Part shown: positions 19,417 to 37,697 of the stretch, piece after piece | How positions within the stretch are numbered: position 1 is the stretch's first letter | Layout of the letters: every line of letters begins with the position of its first letter | Source of the DNA: Haloferax massiliensis | GTDB taxonomy: Archaea; Halobacteriota; Halobacteria; Halobacteriales; Haloferacaceae | DNA length: 64,000 nt | Reading direction: 5' to 3' | Assembly (NCBI RefSeq): GCF_001368915.1 | Contig: NZ_CSTE01000002.1 | Location: forward strand, 224,248-288,247 | The notes under the pieces: generated by a model | What the model was told of the DNA's origin: nothing | Databases searched by the model: none | The model's input: only the letters and a program-made list of their open reading frames with translations | Program-made: the position numbers and the translations under genes

Positions 19417-19464
19417 TCATTGACGAGAAAAAGTTTGCCGACAATATCAATTCAGGTTACCTCC

Positions 19465-22400
19465 ATGAGTGTCTCTGTAGACTTTAGCAATATTAGACCG
19501 GTTGAAGACTCGCGTAGGAAGGGGTTTGAAGAACTGTGTAGCCAGATAGCACATCAGTTCGAAGAGGTGTCTGATTCTTGGAATTATACACGTCTTGGAG
19601 ATCCTGATGCAGGGATTGAATGTAAGTGGGAATCTCCCAGGGGCGAGGTCTGGGGGTGGCAAGCCAAATATGTCGACAGTATTGACAGCAGTAGTCTGTC
19701 ACAGATTGATGATTCAATTGAGAAGGCATTAGATACGTATAACGACCTAAGCCGGTACTTTGTATGCGTCCCTTGTGATCGACCGCATAGTCCAGACGAC
19801 GACGGCAGAACAAAGACCGCTCTGCAAAAGTGGAATGATCGAAAGGAAAAGTGGGAGCGATGGGCTGATGAACGGGACATGGATGTTGAGTTCGTTTTCT
19901 GGGGTCAGTCACAGCTCTACGAGTTTTTAAGCGATGAAAAGCACAAAGGTCGGCTTTACTTCTGGTTTGATTCGGAACAACTCACAGAACCCAAGCTGAG
20001 TGAAGAACTGGAGGTGACGATCTCAAATGCTAATGATCGGTATAGTCCGGAGCTTCACGTGGATACCGGAAGCGCAGATATATTTGAGCCATTAGGTCGG
20101 ACCCCCTGTTTTGTTGAAGATGTTGAGGAGCGCTTGGAAGAACTGAATAATAAAGCAGGAGACTTGTTCACAGAAAGTTCGATTGAGAGATTGAAAGAAG
20201 CTGATGAAGAGGCATTCCTTGACCTGCGTGACGCTATTGAGAAGATCCCCGTTCTGCTTGAAGATATTGAAGAGATTCAAAAGGAGATCCCAATTTCAGA
20301 GTTACAAGATGTAAGTGAGACTGCTCATGATGCAATTTGGGATTTGGATTCTGCACTGCAAAAGTTGCAGGAGGAAGGCGAAGAAGGGGATGAAAATGCT
20401 TCAGATGACTATACATCCTACTCTTTCCGCCAGCTTCGGAGTGAAGTCTATAATTTCAATAATTTTGTAGAAACTAGTGATTTGGAGGTGGCAGAAACGG
20501 CAGGACTGAAGCTGCTCGGCGACGCCGGTATGGGGAAGACCCACCTACTATGTAACGTAGCTAAAAGGCGAATGAAGAACGGTCACCCCACCGTTCTAAT
20601 GTTAGGAGAGAATTTCACTAACAGGAGTATCTGGTCACAGATAATTGAACGCTTAGGGTTAGACTGTACTACTGAAGAGTTCCTGGGTGCGTTAGATTCC
20701 TTTGGGGAGTCGCGCGGTGTCCGATCCCTGCTAATGATTGACGCCCTGAATGAGAGTCCTGATCCACGGATTTGGAATAGTCGGCTTCCGGGCTTATTGA
20801 AAAAGCTTGATAGCTATCCACACATCGGGCTGTGCGTCAGCTGCCGGTCAGGGTATGAGGATCTGGTCATCCCTAGTAGCATTGGTGATGGCTTAGTGGA
20901 GTCCCGACATTACGGATTTCACGAGGTCGAATATGAAGCGGTGCGGAAGTTCTTTGATGAACACAGCATTGAGCATTCCTCGATTCCTGTTCTCCAACGT
21001 GAGTTCCGAGTTCCTTTGTTCTTGAAGTTGTTCTGTGAGAATCTGGAAAATCAGGGGAAGAGCCGGGTATCCCACGGTCCAGAGGGTCTGAGTGAGATCT
21101 TTGAGGGCTATATTGACGGGATCAATGAGCGGCTACGCTGGCGATTGGATTATGATCCCCGCGCTAACCTGGTCAAGCGATCCGTCGAAGCATTGGCTAG
21201 AGAAATGGCAGAGCGAGGAAAAGGGACAAAGCGTCTACCCAAAGAGGTGGCGAAAGAGATCGTTGATGATATCTTTTCTGGTACATCCTACTCTGAGAGC
21301 CTCTATGGGAATATATTGAGTGAAGGTTTGATCTCGGAGGTCGTTAATCCGATTGGGGGCGATGTGAGTGAAGCAGTCAGATTTTCCTACGATAAATTTG
21401 CGGATCATATGCTGGCGCAGCAGTATTTAAAGATATATGTGGACGGAGACTTTGAGCAGGCTCTTGCAGAAGAGGAGGAGTTACAGAAGATCTTTGAGAG
21501 CCCTAAGCAGTATCCTGGCTTGATCCAGGCATTTGCAATTCATCTTCCTGAGCAGGAGGGCGTCGAAGTCTTCGAGTTTATTGATTCAGAGGAGGTTCTA
21601 AAGCCGTTTATCAAGAGCCTGGGGTGGAGACATCCTCAGTCACTAACGGGTTCTGACGGTGAGTTGAAAGAGGATATAGAGGAGTATCTGTGGGAGGAGA
21701 TGCATCTTTTAGAGGATTTGTATGAATTATGGCGTGTTCTTCTCACATTAGCCACCAGCCCGGATCACCCAATGAATGCAGAATATCTCTATCAAGTTCA
21801 TATGGGGCAAAAAGTGGCTCAACGCGATTTCAACTGGTCTACGTTCCTTCACAAGGAGTGGAGCGATGACACTTCTGAGGTGTTCCGTTTGGTAAACTGG
21901 GGATTCTCCTTGGAGAACAACCCGATTGAGTCACGCGAGTCAAAGCGTCTGATCTCACTTACTCTTTCCCTGTTCCTCAGTTGCCCTAACCGGTTCGTCC
22001 GCGACCGTGCGACTAAAGCAATGGTCAATGTCGTAGGGTCCGACATTGACCTGTTTATTGAACTGATCGAACGCTTCCAAGGCGTAAGTGATCCGTACAT
22101 CTTGGAGCGTGTTTATACAGCTGCATATGGTGCCGTCCTCCGCAACAAGGACCACGATGCAGTAGCTGAAATTGCCAATACAGTATTTGAGATAGAATTC
22201 TCAGAGAACGACCCTATCCCGCATCTACTGGCAAGGGACTATGCACGAGGAATAATTGAATTAGCGGATTACCGGATCGGTGATTTCGAGGTGGACATAG
22301 AGAAGGTGAGACCGCCTTACGATAGTTCGTTCTCTATTGAGGTGCCTTCACCGGAGGAGTTGCAGGAGAAAGTTCAGACGTGCCTTGAGGAGTCTGAAAC

Positions 22401-23670
22401 GGATGTGAATGCGCGGTTCTGGTGGGGATTAGTGGGATCTGATTTTGAGGGTAGAGGATCGAGTGATTTTGCCCGGTATATCGTTGGTAGTAATCATAGT
22501 GCTGGCAAGGTCCATGGGTTTGACTTTCCTTGTGATAAGGCTCTTCGCTGGATAACTAAACGAGTATTTGACCTCGGTTGGACCCCTGACAACTTTGGAC
22601 AATTCGATGACCGCGTCAACAGAGGCTTCCATGGGAGAATGGGAAACAGGAAGCCTGAGAAGTTCAGTAAAAAGTATCAGTGGATCGCGTACCATGAGTT
22701 AGTTGCCTGGGTTACCGATAACTATGGTCTCTCTGATTCTCGAAGAGGAACTCCGTACACCGGTCCTTGGACGTATTTCCGGAGGGATATCGACCCATCT
22801 GTTCTAGACCCTGTTTCGGAACCGGAGCGATCTCTGGACAACGTCGTTGATTTTGACTGCCTTGTTGATGAGGTGCCACTTGATGAGTGGGTCTCAAATC
22901 ACGAGGATTTCCCGGAGCTAACAGATCTACTTGAGGTTTCTGTGGATGGTGGGGAGTGGCTGCCATTAGATAGTACGTATAAGTGGAGAGCCGATGAGAG
23001 TCCTGAATCAAGTATAACGCGGGAAACGGTTGTTTGGATTGAATCTGTTCTCGTTCACGAGGATGACGAGGAGACTCTTCGAGATTGGATTAGAAGGGAT
23101 TGGATTGAGAGTGGTGAGATTGAGAGTAACTTGGTGTCTCTCGGTCAGGTGACCCAGATTCTTAGAGGAGAATATCCATGGCATCCTGTAGTTGAAGACC
23201 GGTGGGAGGAGAGTGGTGATGCAATTAGAGGTGCTCCGATTGATACGGAGAACACCACGCTTGACCTGATCTGGGAGGCGGAATATGATTGTTCTATTCA
23301 GGAGAAATACGGGATGTTTGCCCCGACTCCGTATCTCTGTGAATTACTGGATCTAGAATGGATCATAGATACGAGAGAATTCACGCAGGATACGGAAGCT
23401 CCAATTCGGGTAACCGATCTCTCTGAATCAGGGGGTTTGATGGGGAGAGTAGATTCCTTATCGATGCTTGCCGCAGAGAATGGCATTCGCGGTGAGTTAG
23501 AGAATGAAGGGTTATCGCTTGTCTGGATTGTGAAAGGTGAAAAGAGAGTGTTAACCGGGGATCCCGCAGGCAACCAGCTCGGTAAGAGTCAAATCCGGGC
23601 AGCATATTCACTTAACGCTGACGGGGAGTTCGTTGGAGAAGCGACAAGCGACTTCCATAGCTGGGATTGA
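19465..23670 (+). CDS. Avs-like STAND NTPase with N-terminal Mrr-like nuclease domain
   Basis: A 1401-aa protein. Residues ~15-150 look like a restriction-endonuclease fold of the Mrr type, with DPDAGIE followed by the strand WGWQAKY, a (D)...QxK form of PD-(D/E)XK (D48, Q66, K68). A P-loop NTPase follows: Walker A GDAGMGKTH near 352-360 and Walker B LLMIDALNES near 425, the NACHT/STAND style. About 900 C-terminal residues without known motifs would be the sensor. This nuclease-STAND-sensor order matches Avs4 (AVAST) antiviral proteins, which recognise phage proteins and then degrade DNA. Base composition is clearly less G+C rich than its neighbours, suggesting recent transfer from a different source. 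The upstream-open frame from 19228 was not used because it runs through the IS end. Confidence 0.75.
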   Translation: MSVSVDFSNIRPVEDSRRKGFEELCSQIAHQFEEVSDSWNYTRLGDPDAGIECKWESPRGEVWGWQAKYVDSIDSSSLSQIDDSIEKALDTYNDLSRYFVCVPCDRPHSPDDDGRTKTALQKWNDRKEKWERWADERDMDVEFVFWGQSQLYEFLSDEKHKGRLYFWFDSEQLTEPKLSEELEVTISNANDRYSPELHVDTGSADIFEPLGRTPCFVEDVEERLEELNNKAGDLFTESSIERLKEADEEAFLDLRDAIEKIPVLLEDIEEIQKEIPISELQDVSETAHDAIWDLDSALQKLQEEGEEGDENASDDYTSYSFRQLRSEVYNFNNFVETSDLEVAETAGLKLLGDAGMGKTHLLCNVAKRRMKNGHPTVLMLGENFTNRSIWSQIIERLGLDCTTEEFLGALDSFGESRGVRSLLMIDALNESPDPRIWNSRLPGLLKKLDSYPHIGLCVSCRSGYEDLVIPSSIGDGLVESRHYGFHEVEYEAVRKFFDEHSIEHSSIPVLQREFRVPLFLKLFCENLENQGKSRVSHGPEGLSEIFEGYIDGINERLRWRLDYDPRANLVKRSVEALAREMAERGKGTKRLPKEVAKEIVDDIFSGTSYSESLYGNILSEGLISEVVNPIGGDVSEAVRFSYDKFADHMLAQQYLKIYVDGDFEQALAEEEELQKIFESPKQYPGLIQAFAIHLPEQEGVEVFEFIDSEEVLKPFIKSLGWRHPQSLTGSDGELKEDIEEYLWEEMHLLEDLYELWRVLLTLATSPDHPMNAEYLYQVHMGQKVAQRDFNWSTFLHKEWSDDTSEVFRLVNWGFSLENNPIESRESKRLISLTLSLFLSCPNRFVRDRATKAMVNVVGSDIDLFIELIERFQGVSDPYILERVYTAAYGAVLRNKDHDAVAEIANTVFEIEFSENDPIPHLLARDYARGIIELADYRIGDFEVDIEKVRPPYDSSFSIEVPSPEELQEKVQTCLEESETDVNARFWWGLVGSDFEGRGSSDFARYIVGSNHSAGKVHGFDFPCDKALRWITKRVFDLGWTPDNFGQFDDRVNRGFHGRMGNRKPEKFSKKYQWIAYHELVAWVTDNYGLSDSRRGTPYTGPWTYFRRDIDPSVLDPVSEPERSLDNVVDFDCLVDEVPLDEWVSNHEDFPELTDLLEVSVDGGEWLPLDSTYKWRADESPESSITRETVVWIESVLVHEDDEETLRDWIRRDWIESGEIESNLVSLGQVTQILRGEYPWHPVVEDRWEESGDAIRGAPIDTENTTLDLIWEAEYDCSIQEKYGMFAPTPYLCELLDLEWIIDTREFTQDTEAPIRVTDLSESGGLMGRVDSLSMLAAENGIRGELENEGLSLVWIVKGEKRVLTGDPAGNQLGKSQIRAAYSLNADGEFVGEATSDFHSWD

Positions 23671-24597: not shown

Positions 24598-25389
24598 TTA
24601 CGACCAACCCGCATCTTTACGCATCACGTCGTCACGGAGATTCTCTATCGTCTCTACGACGTCATCTTCCTCCATCATCTCCACACGCCGAACCGTCAGT
24701 TCCTCCCGTAAGAGCGTCGTCGTCCGGCTCACGATGTTACTGTTAGACGGTGGGTCGTCGTACGTACCTTCTTCTTTGATTTCGTTCAGTGTGTCGTGAC
24801 ATAGGAGATCACCGCAAGTATGTGTAACGGGGACGTACCGTGCAAAGTCGTGGTCCAAGATGTCGTTGGCGAGTTCCTGGAAACTGAGGACTTGCTTCGT
24901 TCTACTGTAGTCTCGATCATCAACGTCTCCTGATTCACCTTCCTCGTAAGTGAGCTCAGCACCCCACCAGATCCGGTGAAGTGCGTTGGAGTAGGCGTCG
25001 GTCCCTGCCTTCAGGAACTTCTCCTCCATGTTGCCCGGACTTTCTGGATTGAAAACGTGGTCCCACCGATAGTGGACGAACTCCGGAAACCGAACGACAC
25101 AGAGGTAGTGCCACAGGCCCGCGTCTGCCGCCTCGTTCCGCGTTAGATCGAGAGTACGGTGAAGTGTTGGTGCTAGCTCGGCGTCTATCAGCGAGTCCTG
25201 AGCGTCGATATCTTCGTCAGCACGGATCTCCTCAATCCGCTCGTCAACCGGACTCAAGTCTATGGAGCGACCGAGCGGTTGTAAGTACGGACGGAGGTCA
25301 TCCTCCGTGAGGTTTCGCTCGCCAGCGAGGAACCGATTGTCGATCATCGGATGGGCTGCACTCTGCAGGTGGAAAAGCTCAGTCGTCAC
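24598..25389 (-). CDS. Module 1 protein C (DUF6339-like)
   Basis: A 263-aa protein from the GTG at 25389, overlapping the end of gene B by 11 bp. It is homologous to the products at 32077-32784 and 40829-41518. Shared landmarks are GLWHYL, a P-x-F/L-V-x-x-RW segment, E-K-F-L followed by Y-x-NA-x-x-R-I/L-WW (here YSNALHRIWWGAELT) and a helical C terminus. From memory this resembles DUF6339, a small family seen near cytosine methyltransferases and GHKL ATPases; the name needs a profile search. No catalytic motif is evident. The fixed position after A and B suggests the three products work together. Confidence 0.7.
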   Translation of the reverse strand: MTTELFHLQSAAHPMIDNRFLAGERNLTEDDLRPYLQPLGRSIDLSPVDERIEEIRADEDIDAQDSLIDAELAPTLHRTLDLTRNEAADAGLWHYLCVVRFPEFVHYRWDHVFNPESPGNMEEKFLKAGTDAYSNALHRIWWGAELTYEEGESGDVDDRDYSRTKQVLSFQELANDILDHDFARYVPVTHTCGDLLCHDTLNEIKEEGTYDDPPSNSNIVSRTTTLLREELTVRRVEMMEEDDVVETIENLRDDVMRKDAGWS

Positions 25390-26449
25390 TTTGGATCGCC
25401 TCCTCGATCAGGTTCGTCGTATCGGACGGAAGGTTGTACTGCTGATGCACCGCACGTTCGATCCGCTGAACGAGGTCTGGGACATCAACGTGACTACGAA
25501 CGTCCTCGGCGAGTTGGATCTTCGCCTCGTCATCACCGAGATCTGGGTACAAATCGTCCAAAAAGATGCCCAATACGTCTTCCTGCCAACTGTACTCTGG
25601 TTCGCCCGTGTCAGGGCTCGTGTCACGTGCCGTCTGCATCAGTAGTTGCGTCCAAACGGAATGTTCGACGTAATCGTAGAGTACGTCACGCAGCCGGGGT
25701 GGTCCGCCTGTCGCCCCCGTGTTGTTTAGAACATTGATTATTTGCGGGTGTTCCTTGTTCAGATATAGCTGTGGGTTCCGAGGTGCCTCCAAGCTAAGGT
25801 AGTGGATATGGTTCTCGTCGGGGAAGCGGTCGTAGTCGCTGAAGTCTTCGATGATCGGCATGAGAAGACTTCCACCGTCGTCCCTCTCGTCAAGTCGAAC
25901 GATCCACGAGAGCCCGTCAGCGACTCGCGCGCCGACCTTGGACGCGTGCTTCGATCCACTGGAACCACCTTTCTCAGTTCTTGTGAGGAACGGCTTGATC
26001 TTCACTCGTCCACGGTGGTCGTCACGGTTGATGGACAAGGTGAACTCGTGGGTTCCTCCTTCCAGCGGTGAGTCCGTGAGGATCTGCCGGTCTCGACTCA
26101 TTGCGAGTGGATTCTCCTTCACTAGTGCAAGCCGCCCCGGCGTCTCATCCCACTCGTTGAACGGGAATACGTCTTCAACAGTGTCCTGATTGATGGTCAC
26201 GGCACCTTCCAGCTCCAACGTCTCCCAGTTACTCTCGTCCACCAGCGATAGATATTGGTCTTCCTCGTCAAGATCGCCTCTCTCACCGAGAAGAGCGCCA
26301 TCCAGGCGGAACGATTCGACGTTGAATTCGAGCGCCTCTTTTTGATACTCGTGCGGGAGTGATTGGCTGACTAAACTACCCGTCCGGACGTCTTGTTCCT
26401 CTTTTTCGTCCGGCTCAGCTCCTTCAACCTCTCCGTTGACCGTCGCCAT
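25379..26449 (-). CDS. Module 1 protein B, unknown family
   Basis: A 356-aa acidic protein. Its ATG (26449) overlaps the stop of gene A by one base (TAATG), so translation is coupled. It is related to the proteins at 32781-33764 and 39787-40827. Shared landmarks are RGRVKIKPFLTRT, a short P-x-LYLNKEHP motif, RLRDVLYDYV followed by VWTQLLM, and YSWQEDVL. The first half looks beta-rich and the second half helical. I recognise no nuclease or nucleotide-binding motif. It could be the DNA-binding or effector subunit for the GHKL ATPase, but that is inference from gene order only. Confidence 0.65.
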   Translation of the reverse strand: MATVNGEVEGAEPDEKEEQDVRTGSLVSQSLPHEYQKEALEFNVESFRLDGALLGERGDLDEEDQYLSLVDESNWETLELEGAVTINQDTVEDVFPFNEWDETPGRLALVKENPLAMSRDRQILTDSPLEGGTHEFTLSINRDDHRGRVKIKPFLTRTEKGGSSGSKHASKVGARVADGLSWIVRLDERDDGGSLLMPIIEDFSDYDRFPDENHIHYLSLEAPRNPQLYLNKEHPQIINVLNNTGATGGPPRLRDVLYDYVEHSVWTQLLMQTARDTSPDTGEPEYSWQEDVLGIFLDDLYPDLGDDEAKIQLAEDVRSHVDVPDLVQRIERAVHQQYNLPSDTTNLIEEAIQSDD

Positions 26450-28338
26450 TACTTGTCCCTCCGTTCTGCTACGTCAACCGACACTTTCATTCTGGTCTCT
26501 ACCTGTCTGTGATCTTCTGTCGACACGCCCTCGAAGGACACCTTTGACGTGCCAGGAACTGGCTCCAGCCGTCCCACTTGGACGCCCTTCTGCTCGGGGA
26601 GCGATATCGAGACACCCGCCGTATCTGACGAGATGTTCTGGACGGGCAAGCGATCCGACGTTGCTCTCTCCTCTGCCATCCGGATCAACGAAACGGTGAC
26701 CGCTCGTATCTCGTTACTATCGCTCAGAGGCTCCACCTCTCCGTCGAACGACCAGTGTGTGTACACCTCGTCGAACGAGATGTTCGTATCTCCGGTGACG
26801 CGCTGACTGCTAGGCGACTCACGCTCAGCACTTCCCCCTCGTGATTCGTTCCCGATCTTGAATCGGTTTCCCAGACGCTGAGGTCCGGTCGTGCCTCGGT
26901 CTACGTTGGGTGCGACGAGTCCGCGTAAGGTCTCCGTCACGTCAGATTTGATACCCTCTACTGCGGTTCTGAATCCCCGAGAGTAGGTGTTGGCCAGTGT
27001 CTCAGTTCGCACCCATTCGTCGTGCTGAGGTGGCTCTGCAGCAGTCAGGAACTCCTCTACGATAGTTTCTGCCTTTCCTGGAGCTTCGTCGGTTCCCCAC
27101 GGTCGCGCGCGCCCACCGAGTAGAACTGCGTGGAAGTCTTGGTTCCCTACGACGACTCGATCTCGGTCGTAGTACTCGACGACCATCCCCGCACCCCGGA
27201 CGAACGCCACCTGGTTCCGATGCTGATACTCACCCGTATCTGCACGCCGAACCAGCAAGTCCAGTTGGCCATCTGTACCGTCCCCCCCGTCGCTCTTTTC
27301 AGGTACATCGAGCGATATGCTCGCCTGCGCGACGTCTTCTGGATCGTCCAACTGGCTGACCGAGTCGTCACGGTCGTCCAAGCAGTCCGTGAAGGGCTTG
27401 TACTGTGGATACTCGCCGATACTTGCTTGCTTCGTCTCACCGTCCACTTCGACTGCGACCTCTAAGTCACCACGATAGACTGCAGGCCAGAACCACTCGA
27501 TTGCCATCTCCGTGATCTGGTTTGCTAACTCCTCGTCGTCAAGTCGTTCTTCGGCTGTAGGCACGCGGAAATCAACGACCTGGATGCTCGTTCCCGGTGC
27601 GTCTGGACGCTCCAACTGGAGGTTGTCCGCTATCGATTCGGCTTCGTCTCCCCAGATGGACTCCGGCCTCGCACCCTCCTCGTCCCCGTTCAGATTACCG
27701 TACCAACCGTGTCCTTGAAAGACCGTATCGCCGTCTTCGGACTTGTGCGTCGGCAATCGCGTTCGACCGATCAATCGGGGGGACTGGTCTGTCGGGTCGG
27801 GTTCGCTCAGCGTCGAATTGAACATGACGAGTGAGAGGCCCGAGTACAGCCAGAGGACAGCCTTCCCCAGACCGTAACTCCCCCCGGCGGTGTCCCCCGA
27901 CTTACTGCTGAATAGCACGTCACGGACCAGCGCGGTGAAGTTCGACTCGTCGGCGTTCTCCTCACCGAGGAGTCCCTCCGTGTTCTCGTCCTCGATGGTC
28001 AGAATGCGGATTTCCTCGTCGTCCTTTATTCGCTGGATCGCCTCAGCGATGTGTTTCCCGCTCTTCGTGTCTGTCGCTAAGTTGGCGTGCTCGGACCACG
28101 TCTCGATGTCGAGTGCTCTGAGGTACTCTATTGCCTCGTCACCCTGTAAAGATTCCAGCTTGAACGTCACCCGTGCCGGTTGATCGTTTTCCAACCGTGC
28201 GTCGTTCGAGTTCTGCAACACCTCCCGAACGAAGGTCTTCAGCCCGGGTTCACCGTGTGACATCGCGTACTTTGCGACGTCGTCTCCGTATCGAGCATCA
28301 GTCGGTCGAGACGTCGTGAATCCCCACTTACCGCTCAT
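26449..28338 (-). CDS. Module 1 protein A: GHKL (MutL/MORC/Hsp90-type) ATPase
   Basis: A 629-aa protein from the ATG at 28338 (a GTG one codon earlier is possible). The Bergerat ATP-binding fold is visible: N box FVREVLQNSNDA (E39, N43, D46), the ATP-contacting aspartate in TIEDENTEGL (D117) and the glycine-rich lid GGSYGLGKAVLW (152-163). The remaining ~450 residues are shared with the two paralogues, including FVRGAGMVVEYY and AEPPQHDEW. GHKL ATPases clamp or remodel DNA and proteins through ATP-driven dimerisation. MutL/MORC-like members have been linked to bacterial restriction-modification loci (Iyer, Abhiman and Aravind 2008). It is preceded on the same strand by the GIY-YIG gene. Confidence 0.85.
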   Translation of the reverse strand: MSGKWGFTTSRPTDARYGDDVAKYAMSHGEPGLKTFVREVLQNSNDARLENDQPARVTFKLESLQGDEAIEYLRALDIETWSEHANLATDTKSGKHIAEAIQRIKDDEEIRILTIEDENTEGLLGEENADESNFTALVRDVLFSSKSGDTAGGSYGLGKAVLWLYSGLSLVMFNSTLSEPDPTDQSPRLIGRTRLPTHKSEDGDTVFQGHGWYGNLNGDEEGARPESIWGDEAESIADNLQLERPDAPGTSIQVVDFRVPTAEERLDDEELANQITEMAIEWFWPAVYRGDLEVAVEVDGETKQASIGEYPQYKPFTDCLDDRDDSVSQLDDPEDVAQASISLDVPEKSDGGDGTDGQLDLLVRRADTGEYQHRNQVAFVRGAGMVVEYYDRDRVVVGNQDFHAVLLGGRARPWGTDEAPGKAETIVEEFLTAAEPPQHDEWVRTETLANTYSRGFRTAVEGIKSDVTETLRGLVAPNVDRGTTGPQRLGNRFKIGNESRGGSAERESPSSQRVTGDTNISFDEVYTHWSFDGEVEPLSDSNEIRAVTVSLIRMAEERATSDRLPVQNISSDTAGVSISLPEQKGVQVGRLEPVPGTSKVSFEGVSTEDHRQVETRMKVSVDVAERRDK

Positions 28339-28476
28339 CACGACTGCTCACCGGTACTAGCGAATGTGGCCGCAGACATATCGGAGAAGCATGCGATACG
28401 ATTCATAATTGGCACAAATCTCCCGTGCCGACATAAATGTGTGCGGTGTGTTGTCGGCGTAGTCACTCGATTAAGT

Positions 28477-30000
28477 TCAGAACTGTGCCTTTGGGGGAAT
28501 GCCGGTGGCCAAGTAGTGTGCGCCGACGAGGTCGTGACGGACTTCGCTGAGCTCACGCGACCGACGGTGGGTGTCAGAGCTTAGCCCGTCAAGGCTGACG
28601 ACAGAGAAACGCATATCCTCTCCGTATTCACCCTGCAACTTGAAGAGGCGGCTTGATATCGACCCGGTCGTACCCACCTCTTGAACCGTTCGATTCCACC
28701 GTTCCCCGGTTCCCTCCCACCACAGTCGAAACGCGTGTACTCCACTACTGTCAATCACGCCCCGCTCGGAGAGTGGGCGACTCTCGGTCCAGTTGAGTCC
28801 CAACCAGTTCTGGGCGGTCACGTCACGCCAAGGTTGCCACGACGGGATGGTGTACGATGACCGTTCTGCGGCGTCCTTCAGCTCCCGGTGCAACTTGCCG
28901 TGGGACCTGCTTACGTGTTCAACTGGCTTTCGGTTCAGTTGGACCATAGGAGTCCAGCCAACCTCTCGCCGACAGATGGCCACCAGGGTTGCTTCGATTG
29001 CACGCCGATGCCTCCGATTTGACGATATCGGGGGTGTCGTGACAGAAACCTCCATCTCACCTCCCACAAGATCAGTAATCTGCCGAAGGGCACGGGCCGC
29101 GCCGTGTTTGTCTCCAGTCTGTTGATTCGATCCGCTCACCCCAGCTGACAGACCAAGCCCTACGCGCTGTCGCACACCTCCTTCTGATCCCGACTCTCCG
29201 ACGTACATCAAACCCGGAATTTCTGAATGGCGAACTCGGTAGAGACCTGGGCGGCGTGGCAGTTCGTTACGAAGCGTTTTGTGGTCCCGAAGGTCGAACC
29301 ATCTCGACCAATCGAGTCCCATCCAATTCGGGGACTGCGGTTCCGGTTCAAGACGGGTGAGTGGTCCAGGGACGTCTAGGGTTCGTGTCTCCACCGCAAT
29401 CCGCCGGGTAGCCCGGTCAACAGTAGCGATTTCCGACTGAACAACTGATTGAGGAATCGAGAGTAAGCGGGCGATTGCGCCACTACCTGGGACGTACTGT
29501 GAGAGGATCCATATCGTCGCCTGCCGATTCGTCAGTCTGGTCCTGTCCGACACCGCTACGATGTCACCGATAGCGTCTGCAGGGAACTCTGAACACGAGA
29601 CGACGAACCCACCACTGCTCCCCTCAGTTCTGTCTCTAACTACTTTTTCGACCTGCTGGTCGTGAGCTGCCGCCACGGCGTCACGACCGCCTTCGGTGAG
29701 TCCGATTTGACTGGCAGCAGCATCCCAGCATCCGTCACCCTCGGCTAGTACGTACAACAGCCCGTCGTCACTACGTCCTACCGGCAGAGGGTCGAACCCC
29801 GTGAAGAGAGTCTCAACATTGATGGCGGGCGCATTTCGTACTTCTCGAAGCGCTCTAGCAAGTGAATCGGCCTTGATGGAATACTGAGTTGCGACGGATT
29901 CGACGATGTCACGAGACACGGGTACCCCTACGAACGGATCTCCAACGTACGACGTGTTGGACCCCCGGTCCAAATACACGTGACACTCGTCGTCGCTCAT
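28477..30000 (-). CDS. HTH plus GIY-YIG nuclease protein with a degenerate second GIY-YIG-like repeat
   Basis: A 507-aa protein whose ATG overlaps the preceding methyltransferase-like stop by 4 bp. Residues ~155-200 resemble a helix-turn-helix (RLTNRQATIW...SIPQSVVQSE). Residues ~252-360 are a GIY-YIG nuclease: GLY, then LMYVGESG, an arginine in GVRQRV and the metal-binding glutamate in HRRAIEATLV (E336). A second copy appears at the C terminus, with GVHAF, QEVGTTGS and a final HRR...E...LV...G-P-x-x-Q pattern; each copy is preceded by NW(M/L)GL(D/N)W. The first copy looks catalytically complete and the second degenerate. In context it is the best candidate DNA-cutting enzyme of the module 1 operon. 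Confidence 0.8.
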   Translation of the reverse strand: MSDDECHVYLDRGSNTSYVGDPFVGVPVSRDIVESVATQYSIKADSLARALREVRNAPAINVETLFTGFDPLPVGRSDDGLLYVLAEGDGCWDAAASQIGLTEGGRDAVAAAHDQQVEKVVRDRTEGSSGGFVVSCSEFPADAIGDIVAVSDRTRLTNRQATIWILSQYVPGSGAIARLLSIPQSVVQSEIATVDRATRRIAVETRTLDVPGPLTRLEPEPQSPNWMGLDWSRWFDLRDHKTLRNELPRRPGLYRVRHSEIPGLMYVGESGSEGGVRQRVGLGLSAGVSGSNQQTGDKHGAARALRQITDLVGGEMEVSVTTPPISSNRRHRRAIEATLVAICRREVGWTPMVQLNRKPVEHVSRSHGKLHRELKDAAERSSYTIPSWQPWRDVTAQNWLGLNWTESRPLSERGVIDSSGVHAFRLWWEGTGERWNRTVQEVGTTGSISSRLFKLQGEYGEDMRFSVVSLDGLSSDTHRRSRELSEVRHDLVGAHYLATGIPPKAQF

Positions 30001-30773
30001 CGGAACTCGTCTAACTGGCGATTGTCCGCACTTTTGCGTTTAGTGTCCATCCGCTCGTCGTAGTCGGAGTAGTCAACCCGACCTTCCGAGATGCCTTGCT
30101 CGTCCTCGTACACCATCAGCCACAACCGAACCAGATAGTAAATGTACGGTGCAGGTATCGCGTTTTTCGCCAGATGACTCTTCGGATACGGCCCCGGTGG
30201 GTAGTTCTTGACTGCCGCCCACCACTCTCTGGAGCGCTCCGAAAAAAAGAACGACGAGGTTTCCGCCTTATTAGACGATCCATCTGTCGTCAAAAACTGG
30301 CGCTCACGAGGGGGTTGTGGCACCTTGAACGAGGTCTCGAAGGCGCGCTCGTACTCAATCGGCATACCGAACATCCGCCCATTCAGAACGGCGGGGTCGT
30401 TGAGTGGTGCGCGCGGAACGTTTTCGATGATATGGTGGTCACAGTACTTCTCCGCGAGTATCCGCGCACTCGGGATCATGTTTTCGTGCTTGTCGGGGTC
30501 TCCTGAGATGCTCGTCGTCGCAGCCCATCGGGAACAGACCGGGTGGAACAGCCCTAAATCGAACGTGACGTCGTCCTTGACAGGAAGGTCCCACTCCTTG
30601 TCCTTGATGTGGGCATCTGCTTTGATCGGTGTGCTCTCGTTCGTGTCTTTGGGATCGATCCCGACACGAATTACATTCCCGAAGTCGCTGAGTACCTCTG
30701 ATTCCGTGCCGTAGTCCGCGAAACAGTGGAGGATGAGTGGTTCTTCACTCGGTTGGCCCTCGTTAGACGTCAT
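29997..30773 (-). CDS. Divergent C5 cytosine methyltransferase-like protein
   Basis: A 258-aa protein and first gene of the module 1 operon. A Rossmann-type start (LILHCFADYGTES ... VIRVGIDP) is followed by HPVCSRWA, which corresponds to motif IV with PVC in place of PPC/PCQ, and then by IIENVP, the ENV motif VI of C5 methyltransferases. The canonical FxGxGG motif I and QxRxR motif VIII are not clear, so this is a short, divergent member. The cysteine nucleophile and ENV glutamate are retained, so cytosine or modified-cytosine chemistry is plausible. It could instead be an inactive sensor of cytosine state. It overlaps the GIY-YIG gene by 4 bp. Confidence 0.65.
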   Translation of the reverse strand: MTSNEGQPSEEPLILHCFADYGTESEVLSDFGNVIRVGIDPKDTNESTPIKADAHIKDKEWDLPVKDDVTFDLGLFHPVCSRWAATTSISGDPDKHENMIPSARILAEKYCDHHIIENVPRAPLNDPAVLNGRMFGMPIEYERAFETSFKVPQPPRERQFLTTDGSSNKAETSSFFFSERSREWWAAVKNYPPGPYPKSHLAKNAIPAPYIYYLVRLWLMVYEDEQGISEGRVDYSDYDERMDTKRKSADNRQLDEFR

Positions 30774-31023: not shown

Positions 31024-32076
31024 TTACAACAATTCTCGCTCACCATCCACCGTTAACTCGTACCCGACACCCCGAGTTCCGACGCGCTTTCGAGAGACTA
31101 GACCGAGCTCGTTCATTCTGCCGATGAGTCCAGAACGGATTGTACTTGCCTGTGCCGAGGTCCAGTCTTCGGAGAGTTCTGCCACACGCTCACTGAGGGG
31201 ATCTGGTCGATTGACGCCTCCTACAATCGCTTCGGCGACCAATTCCATTGCGTTGTACTCCGCGTGTAGTTCACTATTTACGTGGTCTAAGTAGAATCGT
31301 CGCTCACTTTCGGAGAGTGGGTTATCGCTCCGAAGACTCTGGTCAAGGACGGGGTTTTCGACTCGGGCGAAATCGAGGCCTGCATCGGAGAGGCCGAACT
31401 CACGCGTGCTTGGGGAGATGTTCACGAATTGGAGGTTGGGTAGCGAACCAGTTAGGCTGCCAGTCGAATCGATTTGGCCCACGAAGTGTGTTTTGAACCG
31501 ATTCAGGGAGCTCTCAACTTTATCACCCGTCGGAAATCCAGCCGAGAACTTTTCACCACGACCTCGGCCCGCTTCCTTATCGATCTCTTTCAACTTGTGA
31601 CCATACGCTCGCGCAACCGCTGCTGTCTGCTCACGAAACTCGTCGTAAGCGATCCCCCCCGCACCCGCCTTATCTAATTCGATGGCGAGTCTCCTTACAG
31701 AGACCTTCATCGGGAGGATGCGGTTGTACTGTCCCCACAGCGGACCAGTATCGATTCGACTCGGAGAGGGTGGATCAACCGTCAAGACGTCGAAATCACG
31801 AACGGAAAGATCTTCGAGTTCAGAACTATCCTCGTTGGTACCGGGCGTTTGCTCGCTAGCCAAAGTCTCTCCGAAGGAACTTTGCTCAACCTCCTGACTT
31901 CTGGGTTGAACAGCCTCACTGAACGACATCAGTGTCTGTTGTTCGTCGGATTCTAGCCTCAACTGTGTGTGGAGTGCCTGCTCCAGAAACTCCTCCGGAC
32001 CCGCGTAATTACCCTGCTCTATCGCGGATCGAATCTGATCGACGAGTTCTGAAGGGATATCTACAACGACTCGCAT
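31024..32076 (-). CDS. RHH plus winged-helix DNA-binding regulator (module 2)
   Basis: A 350-aa protein, last gene of the module 2 operon, with its ATG immediately after the stop of gene C. Residues 1-45 form a ribbon-helix-helix (CopG-like) domain: RVVVDIPSELVDQIRSAI followed by GPEEFLEQALH. The C-terminal ~100 residues resemble a winged helix (ASTIRSGLIGRMNELGLVSRK ... GYELTVDGE). The middle is charged and of unknown fold. RHH proteins usually bind operator DNA as dimers, so a role as regulator of this operon, or of all three modules, is likely. Modules 1 and 3 lack an equivalent gene. Confidence 0.7.
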   Translation of the reverse strand: MRVVVDIPSELVDQIRSAIEQGNYAGPEEFLEQALHTQLRLESDEQQTLMSFSEAVQPRSQEVEQSSFGETLASEQTPGTNEDSSELEDLSVRDFDVLTVDPPSPSRIDTGPLWGQYNRILPMKVSVRRLAIELDKAGAGGIAYDEFREQTAAVARAYGHKLKEIDKEAGRGRGEKFSAGFPTGDKVESSLNRFKTHFVGQIDSTGSLTGSLPNLQFVNISPSTREFGLSDAGLDFARVENPVLDQSLRSDNPLSESERRFYLDHVNSELHAEYNAMELVAEAIVGGVNRPDPLSERVAELSEDWTSAQASTIRSGLIGRMNELGLVSRKRVGTRGVGYELTVDGERELL

Positions 32077-32784
32077 TTATTTGCTCTCTTGATATATTTC
32101 GCCGATAATCTCTCTAAGTTGCTGATCTGTGAGGTGTTCCTCACTCGTCACCGACCATTGATGACTGACTGCTTTCGCGGTTCTTTCGACGATCTCGTTA
32201 TCCGATTCGCGGTTCGCTATTCGAGAGAGAACGCGACCAGTACGAGGTCGCCTGAGGTCCATCCTGTCGAATATGCGTTCGGATTTGTACGTCGTTTTAA
32301 GTATCGCCTCTGTCTCGCTATAATCCTCGCCATCTCTGGTAAACTCGGCCATGAACCAGAGGCGTGAAAACGCGTTCGTGTAGAGATCTTGGGTCGAGCC
32401 GAGGAACTTCTCAGTCATCGACTTCTTAGTCCGGTTGGGACCTGTGCGTGGCCAGCGGTACCGAACGAAGTCTGGACGCCACCCAATCGACAGATAGTGC
32501 CAGATCCTTGGATCGCCGGCATCCCGGAGCGGAATATCGATGTATTTTCGCACAGCCGGTGCGACGACCGCGTCTATAGCTTCTTCACCGGGATCTAGGT
32601 CACTCTCGGTGATGACGTAATCAAGGACTCGTCCAAGGTTTGTAAGATTCGCAGTGTGTCCGGTGTCTGTACGATACTCTCTGAGGCGGTCCTCAGAGTA
32701 GCGAGGCGTGTCTCCGTGCATCAGATCCTCTGTGACGAGGACTGAGGCGTCAGTACCCAGTCTGTAAAGTGTTTCTTGGCTCAT
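32077..32784 (-). CDS. Module 2 protein C (DUF6339-like)
   Basis: A 235-aa homologue of the C proteins at 24598-25389 and 40829-41518. Shared landmarks are RIWHYLSIGWRPDFVRYRW, TEKFLGSTQDLYTNA and SRLWFMAEFTRDGEDYS. It starts at an ATG that overlaps the gene B stop by 4 bp and ends one base before the regulator gene. WF replaces the WW seen in the other two copies. Function unknown; the strict linkage to A and B indicates a common complex or pathway. Confidence 0.7.
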   Translation of the reverse strand: MSQETLYRLGTDASVLVTEDLMHGDTPRYSEDRLREYRTDTGHTANLTNLGRVLDYVITESDLDPGEEAIDAVVAPAVRKYIDIPLRDAGDPRIWHYLSIGWRPDFVRYRWPRTGPNRTKKSMTEKFLGSTQDLYTNAFSRLWFMAEFTRDGEDYSETEAILKTTYKSERIFDRMDLRRPRTGRVLSRIANRESDNEIVERTAKAVSHQWSVTSEEHLTDQQLREIIGEIYQESK

Positions 32785-33764
32785 ATGTTTAGGTCAAGGA
32801 CGCGTTCGAGGGATTCGTGTGGAGCGCGGCGGCGCTGAACAGTCGTGGTGATTGAATTGAGCGTGTCCGATAGATTACCCGGCTCGATCATCTCGCTGAC
32901 CTCGTCCGGAGTCTTCCCTTCGAAAACATCACTGCACACGTCGGTCAGCATGCGGTCTTGCCAATCGAATCTCGTTTCGCCGTCGATGGCGTACAGTTCT
33001 GCTGCTTGAAGCACGAACTGTGTCAGGATCTGGGTTCCCTGAAGATCGACGACTAGCTGCCGAATCCGACCGCGAGAGTGTTGTCCTTCGTCCTCAAAGA
33101 ATGACTGAAGGAACCCGTGGTCGGAGTTAATGAAGAGCTTCGGTTTGGCTGGGTCGGTCAACTGGAGGTACCACATATTCCCATCATCGGCGGGGAAGGG
33201 AGCATCAGCAAACGACCGGGGGATAGTCGGCAGATTCTTCGACCGACCGCCAAGTGGATCGTCGATATCGAGGTGTCCCGAGATACCGTGGGCGAGTTTT
33301 CGTCCTACGCGCTCCGCGAATGGTGGTCCTGAGTGGCCAGATGGTTGTTTCTTCAGTCTCTTCGTCCGTACCAGTAGCGGTGTGAGTTCAACTCGCCCCC
33401 GGATGCTATCGTACTCAAGATCGATTGTGTTGCTGTAGGTTCCGTCAGTGAGTGGTGGACCCTCAACGACAGTCTCGAACCGATGGTGATTCGTGGGGCA
33501 GTACGCAACGACGACTAACGCTCCGTCGTAGGGGTCAGAAGAGGGGAACACCCTGTTTAGACTATGCTGAGTGACCGACACTTCGACCGTAAGTTCGCCC
33601 GTAGCCCAGGTTTCCTCTGATGCGAGATTTAGATTCAGAGTGTCACCGAGGGACCGACTCACCCCGGTGTTAAGATCGTACTTTACGAAGTCGAAACCTA
33701 ATACTTCACCGGCGTACCGATAGGGGTACGCGTCTACACGTTTGTGGCCAGAGTTCGTGCTCAT
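32781..33764 (-). CDS. Module 2 protein B, unknown family
   Basis: A 327-aa relative of the B proteins at 25379-26449 and 39787-40827. Recognisable shared pieces are RGRVELTPLLVRTKR, KPKLFINSDHGFL, RIRQLVVDL with ILTQFVLQAAEL and FDWQDRML. Overall it is the most diverged of the three. The ATG at 33764 overlaps the stop of the ATPase gene (ATGA), and its own stop overlaps gene C in the same way. No catalytic motif can be identified. Confidence 0.65.
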   Translation of the reverse strand: MSTNSGHKRVDAYPYRYAGEVLGFDFVKYDLNTGVSRSLGDTLNLNLASEETWATGELTVEVSVTQHSLNRVFPSSDPYDGALVVVAYCPTNHHRFETVVEGPPLTDGTYSNTIDLEYDSIRGRVELTPLLVRTKRLKKQPSGHSGPPFAERVGRKLAHGISGHLDIDDPLGGRSKNLPTIPRSFADAPFPADDGNMWYLQLTDPAKPKLFINSDHGFLQSFFEDEGQHSRGRIRQLVVDLQGTQILTQFVLQAAELYAIDGETRFDWQDRMLTDVCSDVFEGKTPDEVSEMIEPGNLSDTLNSITTTVQRRRAPHESLERVLDLNI

Positions 33765-35635
33765 GGTTGACCTCCCGGGGAGAGGTCGTACTCAAAGTCT
33801 AGACGAGTTCGTCCTGCGAGAATCTCGTCACCGATAGCGACCGACGAAAGCTCGAAAGTGGTTCGAGTCGTGTGCTTCGTGAACTCGTAAGTTATCTCTC
33901 CGTCACGCACCGTGGGTGCCGAGTCGTCGGGAGACGACCCCCTATCGATATCGATTTGATCGATGGTCTTGTTGGACCCATCAACTTCGTCAATCGAGAT
34001 CGTCAGCGTCCAGTTGTTCTCCGGTTGTGTATCGAGTTCTATCTCCCCTTGATAGCGATGTGCACCGTCGAACCAGCTGTCCAGCTGGACGACGTTGAAT
34101 GGTGAGTTTCCGCCCCCGCCCCCGCCACCGTTTCTTTCACCAGAGGTCCCGTGATCGTCTTCGAAAAACGGGAACTCCTCCCCCAGGTTCTTGACTCGTT
34201 CGTCATCGTCGGTTTGAGCGCCACCGAGTATCTGTTGTAGCTCTTTCTTTACTGTCGTCTTGAGGAAGGAGACGATACGTTTAGAGGGATTTTCGTCGTC
34301 GTAGGCGTTCGCCAATCTCGGTGTGGGCTCTTCCCAGGTATCGTGGGCCTCGGGCTCGGCATCACGGAAAAAGAACTCGATGGCTTGGTCGCCTGGATCC
34401 GGTATGTCTTCGGCTTTGAGGCCCGGTGGATGTTTGGCCCCTCCCGCAAGCAGGAGTGCGTGGAAGTCTTTGCCCGTTGTGCGAGAGGCTGACCCGTAGT
34501 TCCTATACTTCACGACGTGACGTGGACCGCGGAACATCGCCACTTTGTTCCGATACTTTTCGAGATCGTTCTCGTCAACAAGCCTGACCACAAGGACGAG
34601 TTCTCCCGTTATCTCTGGTTCTGAATCGGTTGGGGGGACCTCAAACTCAATTTCTTCGACCGCGACAGTGCCTGGATCACCAAAGTCGTCGTCCGGGTTC
34701 TGCCAAGCCTCGTAGGCTTGGGCGTAGGGAGACACGCGTGGGACTGACTTCGGATTGACCTCACGGGGTGTTGAGTCGTTCGGGCCTTCAACAGTTACCT
34801 CAATGCCGTCATCAACGATGAGTGGCCAGTAGTAACGCGCTGCGGCTTCATAAATAGCGTCAACGATATCTTCCGGCTCTCTCGTCGCTCGTGTTCGCTC
34901 TCTGAAACCGACGACGAGCGAAGTCGTCCCGTTTTCGCCAGTTCGGTCCAGCCTAAGCGTCTCGGCGAGGTTACTTGGGACTGGCTGAAGTGCGACCGAC
35001 CGGTCGTGCGAACCGTCGTCAACACCGAGCCAGCCGCCGCCCTTGTACTCTTCGCCTCCGAGTACGTGGTCAGGGAGGTCTAACCGGCCAACGAGTTTCG
35101 AATCCGTTTCAGATGCGGCGAGACTATGGAAGAGAACGAGTTTGAACCCAGAGAACGCCCACAAAACCGAGGCACCGACACCGTGGATGCCACCACCTTC
35201 TTTCTTGCCAGAGCTAGCGAAGTCTTTGACGAGATCTGCGTAATTGGTGTCTCGACTATCGTCGTCTCCGTCTAAACCTACTGCGTGAGTATCTTCGATG
35301 CCGAGTATGTAGAGTTCCCCTTCGTCAATCTGGTCAAGGGCTTTCTGGACGCCGAGCTTCTCGTCGTTCTCCGCGACGGCTTCGAGATGGGGCCGAAGTT
35401 GTTTCCAATCGATTGCATTTTTGAAATCCTGCAGTTCACTTCCCTCAAGACACTCGAAAAAGAAGTTGATCTGTGGTTTCTCACCGGTCTCTCTCGCGTC
35501 GTAGGTGTTCTGGATGAGTTCTCTGGGGAGGGTTCCCAGTACTGAATTTAGTGCGAACTCGGTTTGTGGTGTCCCGACGAACGTCTCGTCCGAATCCAAC
35601 TCCTTGAACGTTGCATCGAGCTTTGTGTGCGCCAT
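33761..35635 (-). CDS. Module 2 protein A: GHKL ATPase
   Basis: A 624-aa protein from the ATG at 35635 (MAHTKLDATF), chosen because a good TATA box lies ~35 bp upstream; the frame is open to 35719. The GHKL signature is present: PRELIQNTYDA (E39, N43, D46), LGIEDTHAVGL and the lid GGGIHGVGASVLW, in which Ala replaces the Lys seen in the other two copies. Later landmarks MFRGPRHVVKY and AEPEAHDTW match the paralogues at 26449-28338 and 37889-39790. A Gly-rich linker (about residues 518-528) separates the ATPase part from a C-terminal beta-rich domain. Likely an ATP-driven DNA or protein clamp in a restriction-like system. Confidence 0.85.
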   Translation of the reverse strand: MAHTKLDATFKELDSDETFVGTPQTEFALNSVLGTLPRELIQNTYDARETGEKPQINFFFECLEGSELQDFKNAIDWKQLRPHLEAVAENDEKLGVQKALDQIDEGELYILGIEDTHAVGLDGDDDSRDTNYADLVKDFASSGKKEGGGIHGVGASVLWAFSGFKLVLFHSLAASETDSKLVGRLDLPDHVLGGEEYKGGGWLGVDDGSHDRSVALQPVPSNLAETLRLDRTGENGTTSLVVGFRERTRATREPEDIVDAIYEAAARYYWPLIVDDGIEVTVEGPNDSTPREVNPKSVPRVSPYAQAYEAWQNPDDDFGDPGTVAVEEIEFEVPPTDSEPEITGELVLVVRLVDENDLEKYRNKVAMFRGPRHVVKYRNYGSASRTTGKDFHALLLAGGAKHPPGLKAEDIPDPGDQAIEFFFRDAEPEAHDTWEEPTPRLANAYDDENPSKRIVSFLKTTVKKELQQILGGAQTDDDERVKNLGEEFPFFEDDHGTSGERNGGGGGGGNSPFNVVQLDSWFDGAHRYQGEIELDTQPENNWTLTISIDEVDGSNKTIDQIDIDRGSSPDDSAPTVRDGEITYEFTKHTTRTTFELSSVAIGDEILAGRTRLDFEYDLSPGGQP

Positions 35636-35941
35636 GTGTTTTGTGTGTATGTCTGTGTGAACCGTGAATATATCAATGTTTGCCTGAACTACATGAGACC
35701 GGAATATCACCATACCCACCCGAAGATCGGCTAATATCGGTTATTCTGTCGATTCCAGAGCCCGTGAGGTTGTCAACGCTTCAGTGTATCGGGTTGTTCA
35801 ACTAACCTGATTGCCGTAGACCAATCTACACATAGGATTATGGTGTGTTTGTCGGGTTTCCCATTGTTGGCACGTACACTGAGACTCAGTCGTCAAAGTG
35901 CTCACAACCTGTGGGCGTGCCCACACGGTAGAACAGCTGGC
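35636..35941. other. Intergenic region upstream of module 2, with TATA box
   Basis: On the minus strand GATATATTC (35674-35666) is a good TATA box; the predicted start, ~26 nt downstream, leaves a very short leader before the ATG at 35635. The rest of the spacer, up to the glycosylase stop at 35942, is A+T richer than the genes and holds no supported ORF. Because the glycosylase gene is also on the minus strand, read-through from dcm is possible. Confidence 0.5.
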
Positions 35942-36571
35942 TCACTCCTGTAAAGATTGGAAATAGACGCAGTACTCGTTAGCGAAACAAGCACCACACA
36001 ATGGATCTGGCCCACATACTATCGCTCCGAAGTCTAATAGCGCAAGGTTGTATGCTCGTGCGTCTCCGGGGACCAACCTCTCAGTATAACTGAGTTGATC
36101 TGCTTCTGTCTCGGGCCACGCGTCTCGAAATACCCGACTGTACACCCTCTCGACGTTCCTATCAAGTATCGGCAACTGGTCCCCACGGGCGAAGCACAAC
36201 GTGGCGTTCGCCACGTAGCGGCCCACTCGCGGAAGTTCCATCAGTAATTCTGGTTCAGCAGGGAGGTGGTCGTGTGTCGAGGCAATTTGCTTCAGTGCCG
36301 CTGAGCGCATATTTTGGAATCCGAGAGGCTCGATAACTTCGACGAGTTCGTTCTCGTTGGCCTCCGATATCGAGTCCAGCGTGGGGAACCGTTCCAAGAA
36401 CCTCGGATAGACCGCTGCGACGTTGTCAGCCGGCGTCTGGGTCAGGAAGAACTCCGCTACGAACACTTCGTACAGCGTTCGGTTCGATTCGCGCCACGGG
36501 TACTCACGACGGTTCTCCTGCCACCATTCAAGCAGGTTCGTCCGAAACCGGCGCTCCGCCTCAGACAACAT
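35942..36571 (-). CDS. MIG-like T:G mismatch DNA glycosylase (HhH-GPD, 4Fe-4S)
   Basis: A 209-aa HhH-GPD glycosylase. The helix-hairpin-helix is LPRVGRYVAN; the residue at the EndoIII catalytic-lysine position is Tyr119, as in the archaeal mismatch glycosylase Mig.MthI rather than EndoIII. The catalytic aspartate is D137 (PILDRNV). Four cysteines (186, 192, 195, 201) form the iron-sulphur motif, with five rather than the usual six residues between the first two. It follows the C5 methyltransferase gene by 10 bp on the same strand. Such glycosylases remove thymine from T:G pairs produced by 5-methylcytosine deamination, so it probably protects methylated sites, the role Vsr plays in bacteria. 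Confidence 0.85.
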   Translation of the reverse strand: MLSEAERRFRTNLLEWWQENRREYPWRESNRTLYEVFVAEFFLTQTPADNVAAVYPRFLERFPTLDSISEANENELVEVIEPLGFQNMRSAALKQIASTHDHLPAEPELLMELPRVGRYVANATLCFARGDQLPILDRNVERVYSRVFRDAWPETEADQLSYTERLVPGDARAYNLALLDFGAIVCGPDPLCGACFANEYCVYFQSLQE

Positions 36572-36581
36572 CGGCTCTCAC

Positions 36582-37697
36582 TCAGTCGTCGGCGACAGAG
36601 GACTCGACAGACGGAGTTGCGGCCCCGACGTGCGAGAAAATCGCTTGTCCCATGTACTCACCGAGCTTCGGGGGGACAGCGTTTCCGATCAGTCGGCCCA
36701 GATTCGACACACCGACGTCTTCCCACTCGTCGTAGAAGTCGTAGTCTTCCGGGAACGTCTGCAACAGTGCACCCTCAAGCAACGAAAGTGCCCGGTTCTG
36801 GTCTGTATCGTAGTGACCAAAGCGGCCGCTGCCGTAGTTGTAGAACTGCGTCGTGATCGTCGGAGAGGGTTCGTCGGGCCGCATCCTGCTGTAGGGGGCT
36901 TTGTACGAGCGTCCGCTCGCTTTCCGGTGGCAATCCGCCAAGAGATGGTTGAGGCCTTCCTTCTCCCAGAGAGTCCAGTCTCCACCAGGTTCCATATTGT
37001 CGATACGCTCTAAGTTCTTTGCCGAAAGGGAACGTGCTCTATGTACGTCGTTCTCGTCGCTGACTTCCCCTGCTTCAAGTGGTGGCAAGTGATCAATCGT
37101 ATCTCTGACCGTAGGATAGTCATCCTCGCTCTGAATCGGTGGATCGGGCAGCGACAGAGGCCCTCGCTTAGACGCCATGACCACCCACCGCTTCCGCTTC
37201 TGTGGGATCCCGTACTTTGGGCAGTAGACGTTCTTGTTCTCGTCGCTATTGACGTGGTAGCCCTGTGATTCCAAGCTCTCGATGAACGCGTCGTAAACGC
37301 CGTCCTCCTGCTTAACTTGGAGTACGTTCTCGGTGACCACCACATCCGGCTCGACGTACTTTGCGATTCGTGAGACCTCGTTCAATAGCCCCCACTTTTG
37401 ATGATCTTCGTGACCTTTCCCCTTCGAGTGCCCCATCGTGGAGTACGGTTGGCAAGGCGCACAAGCCGCGAGGACCTTCAAATCCGCATCCCACGGGTAC
37501 ATCTGTGCGATTGGTTCTGGATCCTTTGCCAACGAGCGGATGTCCGCTCTGACGTACTTTCCGTCGATGTTCTGCTCGTACGGGTACTTGCAGTCCCGAT
37601 CCTTATCGATCCCTGCAACGACCGAAACACCGGACTCCTGGAGGCCATAACTGAGGCCGCCTGCTCCGCAGAATAAATCCACCGCAGCTACCTTCAT
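36582..37697 (-). CDS. DNA (cytosine-5)-methyltransferase
   Basis: A 371-aa complete C5 methyltransferase from MKVAAVDLFCGAGG. Motif I is FCGAGGLS, motif IV is APCQPYS with nucleophile C82, motif VI is ENV (123-125), motif VIII is GIPQKRKRWV, followed by a target-recognition stretch, motif IX (RPDEPSPTIT) and motif X (GNAVPP). It should methylate cytosine in a short target; the specificity cannot be read from sequence. It is transcribed with the mismatch glycosylase and divergently from module 3. No conventional restriction gene is adjacent, which supports coupling to the GHKL modules. Confidence 0.93.
   Translation of the reverse strand: MKVAAVDLFCGAGGLSYGLQESGVSVVAGIDKDRDCKYPYEQNIDGKYVRADIRSLAKDPEPIAQMYPWDADLKVLAACAPCQPYSTMGHSKGKGHEDHQKWGLLNEVSRIAKYVEPDVVVTENVLQVKQEDGVYDAFIESLESQGYHVNSDENKNVYCPKYGIPQKRKRWVVMASKRGPLSLPDPPIQSEDDYPTVRDTIDHLPPLEAGEVSDENDVHRARSLSAKNLERIDNMEPGGDWTLWEKEGLNHLLADCHRKASGRSYKAPYSRMRPDEPSPTITTQFYNYGSGRFGHYDTDQNRALSLLEGALLQTFPEDYDFYDEWEDVGVSNLGRLIGNAVPPKLGEYMGQAIFSHVGAATPSVESSVADD

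Follow-up and report, generated by a model that had tools for sequence, protein, structure and literature searches.

What is a gene for a divergent cytosine C5-methyltransferase-like protein doing in overlap with a gene for a GIY-YIG protein, on a haloarchaeal virus-defence island that is rich in GHKL ATPase-like genes? We examined this question for Haloferax massiliensis, using a window (the whole 64,000-nucleotide stretch of DNA that was analysed) from a host genome of 4.0 Mb in which one end of the island bears a tRNA-Glu gene and an integrase-like gene. The two genes, here termed CM (29997-30773 (-), 258 aa) and GIY (28477-30000 (-), 507 aa), overlap by 4 bp (ATGA, 29997-30000 (-)), the stop of CM running into the start of GIY, and the GHKL gene of module a (26449-28341 (-)) starts approximately 136 bp past GIY. 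This arrangement agrees with a preliminary description of the locus made from the sequence.

Layout of the island

The island carries three copies (a, b and c) of a three-gene module, GHKL/B350/DUF6339. Module a continues downstream of GIY with a GHKL ATPase-like protein (PADLOC PDC-M33A, E 1e-35; motifs ExxxNxxDA and GxxGxG by reading), B350a (25379-26449 (-)), an approximately 350-aa protein encoded by the middle gene of the triplet, and a DUF6339 protein (24598-25389 (-)) assigned by PADLOC PDC-M33C and a domain match. Module b lies on the other side of CM and comprises a DUF6339 protein (32077-32784 (-); domain match), B350b (32781-33764 (-)) and a GHKL-like protein (33761-35719 (-)) similar to that of module c, together with a fourth gene, X350 (31024-32076 (-)), which reads as having an RHH-like N-terminus and has relatives in loci L076, L078 and L064. 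Beyond module b are a HhH-GPD Fe-S glycosylase of the Mig type (35942-36571 (-)), also matched by a PADLOC type II nicking endonuclease model, and a canonical C5-cytosine methyltransferase (36582-37703 (-)) matched by the PADLOC DrmMII model with 850 bits. Divergent from the methyltransferase gene is module c, with a GHKL-like protein (37853-39790 (+); similarity), B350c (39787-40827 (+)) and a DUF6339-type protein (40829-41518 (+)) similar to those of modules a and b. The GHKL proteins had no Pfam match, and their putative identity comes from motif reading and from PDC-M33A, a PADLOC model without a description. No PADLOC model matched B350a, CM or GIY of the window, and a literature search found no paper on DUF6339.

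Several further genes of the window were recorded. An Avs2-type antiviral STAND NTPase gene (19228-23670 (+); PADLOC Avs2, 1425 bits) adjoins a transposase-like ORF (18405-19262), and 10654-18346 (+) holds Mre11-, Rad50-, NurA- and HerA-like genes in series, identified by eye from their translations; instead of being the housekeeping copies, these possibly form a cassette for defence or DNA processing. Reading of translations also indicated a large ORF like a type IIG restriction-methyltransferase with an NPPY-type motif (6828-9695 (+)) and a second MutY/Mig-like HhH glycosylase-type ORF (54745-55383 (-)) beyond the GHKL part of the island.

Sequence and predicted structure of CM

Both reading frames are intact. 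CM has a dN/dS of 0.05-0.07 against relatives in other genera and GIY, which evolves approximately three times faster, one of 0.17-0.21. Because the two genes are conserved across genera with low dN/dS, they are not chance ORFs and are under purifying selection. Searches of Pfam, NCBIfam and PHROGs with the window CM, like that of PADLOC, gave no match, although PF00145 was touched weakly by four members of the CM family; PDB sequence-profile searches returned nothing useful for CM or GIY.

The identification of the first protein as a divergent C5-methyltransferase-like protein that keeps the catalytic Cys and ENV was borne out by alignment and modelling. C80 (in H-P-V-C80), E117 and N118 (in E117-N118-V) are invariant in 28/28 aligned sequences. 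An AlphaFold2 model built from the 28-sequence alignment (pLDDT 79.7, pTM 0.76) had C5-cytosine methyltransferases as its best structural matches (Foldseek E about 2e-6), and superposed on M.HhaI with a Z of 15.8 over 207 residues at 3.5 Å. CM is thus predicted to have the C5-cytosine methyltransferase fold, and the structure comparison proposed in the preliminary description returned C5-methyltransferases instead of an unrelated fold. Residues 10-231 of CM cover M.HhaI 10-327 with the target-recognition domain (TRD) absent: approximately 45 residues separate motif VIII from the C-terminal motif, and nothing corresponds to the TRD between motifs VIII and IX.

CM had also been said to lack clear motifs I and VIII, which holds for one motif only. 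Motif VIII is FGMPIEYERAFE, as against the canonical YGIPQKRxR (family pattern FG-x-P-I-x-Y-x-R-x-F), and since its Arg, R143 (equivalent to M.HhaI R165), is invariant in 28/28 sequences, this motif is altered rather than missing. Motif I is degenerate (LHCFADYGTESEVL), with FxGxG replaced, and the island members of CM have lost the proline of PC and the Gln after it. In a profile-profile alignment with the family of the window's own canonical C5-methyltransferase, F18-A19-D20-Y21-G22 falls on FxGxG with the first Gly replaced by Asp, a register for which the hhalign probability is low (6%) and which agrees with the anchored motifs and a MAFFT alignment. His16 stands in for the usual motif I Asp, and alignment A2 shows no variation at H16, E24, E26, R36 and H77. 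Among the adenine-pocket residues, F18 (Tyr in two sequences) and D53 are kept in the family and N204 is kept in 19/28, and residue 40, the position of the ribose-binding acid, varies between D, E, N, S, A and K.

Of two hallmarks of active SAM-dependent C5-methyltransferases, FxGxG in motif I is FAD-x-G in CM and the acidic ribose-binding residue is not conserved. Judged from these residues, CM combines a conserved catalytic core with a rebuilt cofactor pocket, and ordinary SAM methylation may have been lost, since FxGxG is replaced and residue 40 is variable. These changes leave room for the earlier suggestion that CM modifies bases in some other way than a classical methylase does.

The GIY-YIG protein

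The complete GIY-YIG site previously read in the second protein was found in a first repeat (residues about 250-350; GLYRVRH...MYVGES...R...E), and is followed by a degenerate second repeat (about 420-500) in which the tyrosines are lost (HAF and EVG). Preceding these, the N-terminal region of approximately 220 aa contains an HTH-like stretch, LTNRQATIWILSQYVPGSGAIARLLSIPQSVVQSEI. From about residue 225 to residue 507, the protein is a member of a two-repeat GIY-YIG family that is widespread in haloarchaea; PF01541 matched 9/10 of the scanned relatives, several in two stretches, and the window protein itself had no Pfam (PF01541), PADLOC, PHROGs or NCBIfam match. The quality of its structure model (pLDDT 51.7) did not permit a fold search. 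The N-terminal region is joined to the GIY-YIG core only in loci with CM and/or GHKL genes (nine genomes plus L086, L089, L090, L091 and L093), and a consistent absence of GHKL modules beside the full-length protein, the pattern that the preliminary description had set against its own proposal, was not seen. GIY is present in 9/16 genomes with CM and absent from 7/16, and is an optional partner.

Genes that travel with CM

Close relatives of CM occur in 16/292 haloarchaeal genomes, in islands. A canonical C5-methyltransferase is near CM in 15/16 of these genomes (gap 0.2-8 kb; Fisher P = 4e-18) and GHKL genes are found in 16/16 (P = 8e-22), both P values being calculated over 292 genomes and serving only as a guide due to the relatedness of these genomes. 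In the lone genome without the C5-methyltransferase, the sequence breaks 97 bp upstream of CM. The constant partners of CM are thus the canonical C5-methyltransferase and the GHKL triplets. Most often, DUF6339-B350-GHKL lies divergent from C5-methyltransferase, glycosylase, CM, GIY, GHKL, B350 and DUF6339, and the gene order of the unit is conserved across genera. Treatment of CM and GIY as a pair does not hold as it stands: GIY is optional, and the pair is a slice of a larger unit. CM is itself absent from 9/24 genomes having this C5-methyltransferase, which indicates that CM is an add-on and not essential to the system.

The Mig-like glycosylase is present in most CM loci. Its best PDB match is 1kea (E 2e-31), a G/T-mismatch repair enzyme of the Mig type, with VG-x-Y (Tyr at the position of the catalytic Lys), the Asp and the 4Fe-4S Cys residues all aligned, and such an enzyme would suit repair of deaminated 5-methylcytosine.

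A second lineage of C5-methyltransferase, C5MTb, accompanies or replaces parts of the CM unit in loci L091, L076, L096, L097, L078, L064 and L129-L137. It is often beside an ORF of approximately 680 aa, annotated in L064 as an ATP-binding protein. Haloterrigena sp. H1 has two copies of the whole CM unit, of which one (L093) is decayed.

Relatives and origin of CM

Apart from the islands, CM-like genes were found at other chromosomal loci, in halovirus contigs and in the pleolipoviruses HRPV-9, His2 and Hardyhisp2. The next relatives of this family are small methylases of actinophages, which form an outgroup with full support in the tree. The island members nest inside the haloarchaeal/haloviral (viral/proviral) family, although a single origin for them has weak support (56/39). 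Their position makes recruitment of CM from haloviruses into the island likely but does not prove it. Viral CM occurs alone, without the C5-methyltransferase.

In two halovirus contigs (L107:8500-8973 and L109:9274-9771), a small methyltransferase-like gene with a DPPW motif lies directly upstream of a CM-type gene. We propose no fixed viral partner of this type, as none was seen beside CM in HRPV-9 or His2. On a plasmid of Haloplanus sp. GX21 (L064:12001-12829), CM is split in two and directly follows drmE-drmA-drmB-drmC.

Possible functions of CM

Our preferred explanation, which we hold with about even confidence, is that CM is a mini enzyme for cytosine C5 modification that came from haloviruses and was taken up by a restriction-modification system of the GHKL type, which in some genomes lies next to DISARM. 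A haloviral ancestry is probable, and CM, the C5-methyltransferase, the DNA-repair enzyme and the ATPase modules probably act as one self/non-self system. CM would flip out a cytosine, Cys80 would attack C6 with the assistance of Glu117 and Arg143, and cytosines of host DNA would receive a group at C5 with little sequence specificity, in addition to the sequence-specific marks of the C5-methyltransferase. DNA without the host marks would then be the target of the GHKL modules and, in loci that have it, of GIY-YIG, while the Mig-like glycosylase would repair deaminated 5-methylcytosine. Viral copies of CM would make the same mark and protect viral DNA. The analysis shows the predicted fold, the retained catalytic residues, purifying selection, the constant linkage and the place of CM in a haloviral/proviral family; we infer catalysis by CM, DNA as its substrate, the transferred group, the role as a self mark and cutting by the GHKL and GIY-YIG proteins.

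Alternatively, CM may have no catalytic activity, or a regulatory role, and may partner the C5-methyltransferase or a GHKL module by using its fold for binding and not chemistry, as DNMT3L does for DNMT3A. Loss of FxGxG and of the PC proline, the variable ribose acid and the absence of a TRD would all fit such a role, as would the finding of island CM always near a C5-methyltransferase, but Cys80, Glu117, Asn118 and Arg143 are invariant even in distant viral homologues and viral CM stands alone, so that we regard a silent partner as unlikely. The proposal of the preliminary description that the two proteins together recognize and cut DNA by its modification state, with CM reading or flipping the modified cytosine and GIY-YIG cutting, seems improbable: seven of the 16 CM genomes have no such GIY-YIG protein, the nuclease evolves much faster than its supposed partner, and neither protein has a TRD or a known modified-base reader domain. 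These points have to be set against the gene overlap, which several relatives share with the window, and the limitation of full-length GIY-YIG to loci with CM and/or GHKL genes.

The chemistry of CM might also differ from methylation, with cytosine being converted to uracil or another donor being used. G-to-D mutants of M.HpaII (G40D) and M.SssI (G19D) make weaker use of SAM and are cytosine deaminases (PMC3804486); in CM the mutated site, the first Gly of FxGxG, is occupied by D20 (28/28 in alignment A2), which makes deamination a reasonable rival, and a base-excision glycosylase is encoded in most of the CM loci. However, the D20 position is Gly in His2 and Hardyhisp2 and Lys or Ser in two phage small methylases and is therefore not diagnostic of deamination, ruling out the argument that D20 proves a deaminase. 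In addition, D20 may preserve the loop by pairing with H16 (the canonical Asp), a deaminase that is always active would harm its host and repair of 5-methylcytosine accounts for the glycosylase, leaving this reading distinctly improbable. Transfer of a carboxymethyl group from carboxy-SAM is barely credible. CmoX, a phage DNA cytosine C5-carboxymethyltransferase, is a C5-methyltransferase relative with a changed donor (PMC12783734), which demonstrates that donor change is possible in phage relatives, and its fold matches that of the CM model (8yf3, Z 13.8). However, the carboxylate-binding Arg (CmoX R350, equivalent to M.HhaI N304) is Asn, His, Ser or Glu at CM residue 204 and the SPPC of CmoX is HPxC in CM; carboxymethylation was rejected because the donor-selecting Arg is missing. 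A bolder and rather unlikely conjecture is that the CM family gave up ordinary SAM methylation, deaminating cytosine or using another donor, and that its product is a contested self/non-self mark of the island and haloviruses.

The window outlines a haloarchaeal modification-defence system with testable parts. The CM family is common to the island and the haloviruses HRPV-9, His2 and Hardyhisp2; the viral records consulted give the ORF no name beyond hypothetical protein. If CM, as we favour, is an active enzyme, it would modify cytosine without a TRD and with a rebuilt cofactor pocket, and a DNA-modifying activity could be assigned to these pleolipovirus genes.

Comparison with known systems

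The nearest counterparts of CM outside its family are the small C5-type 'DNA methylases' of phages such as Mycobacterium phage Wanda (gp121) and Streptomyces phage BillNye, which at approximately 200-240 aa are, like CM, without a TRD. They share motifs IV, VI, VIII and X in the same order and detectable sequence similarity with CM, but most have a DLFxGAGG-type motif I and SPPCQ where CM has H-x-F-A-D-x-G-x-E-x-E and HPxC, and the CM family forms a separate, fully supported group in the tree. CmoX shares the fold and differs in its donor-selecting Arg and TRD, both of which CM lacks, CM having an altered motif I instead.

The C5-methyltransferase of the window resembles DISARM in its match to the DrmMII model, and a high-scoring DrmB lies within 14 kb in 9/24 genomes with this methyltransferase (linkage to DISARM in other genomes is significant, P = 2e-8). 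The DrmAB ATPase of DISARM is less active on DNA with 5-methylcytosine, the mark of DrmMII (PMC9142583). DrmB is absent from the whole genome of the window, so the DISARM core of drmA, drmB and drmC is incomplete there and membership of DISARM was ruled out for this genome; in most loci the GHKL module has no DISARM genes with it. No example with GHKL genes or from haloarchaea is given in a recent preprint on helicase systems related to DISARM. PADLOC offers neither a description nor a function for its candidate PDC-M33, of which model M33A matches GHKL and model M33C matches DUF6339 proteins of the window.

A close parallel for the locus is provided by the GHKL (MORC/paraMORC) restriction-modification systems, in which cytosine methylases and mismatch nucleases are established companions of GHKL ATPases (PMC2292703). 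Like these, the window combines GHKL genes with a cytosine methylase and a mismatch-repair enzyme, but the latter is a Mig-like HhH-GPD protein in the window and Vsr in the known systems. A superfamily II helicase is present in about 70% of MORC loci; no helicase gene was identified in the module itself, and drmA adjoins it in some relatives. B350 and DUF6339 stand in place of the helicase and restriction endonuclease genes, and CM is extra. GHKL-type restriction-modification is therefore already known, and what is new here is a variant of it with an unusual, virus-related enzyme.
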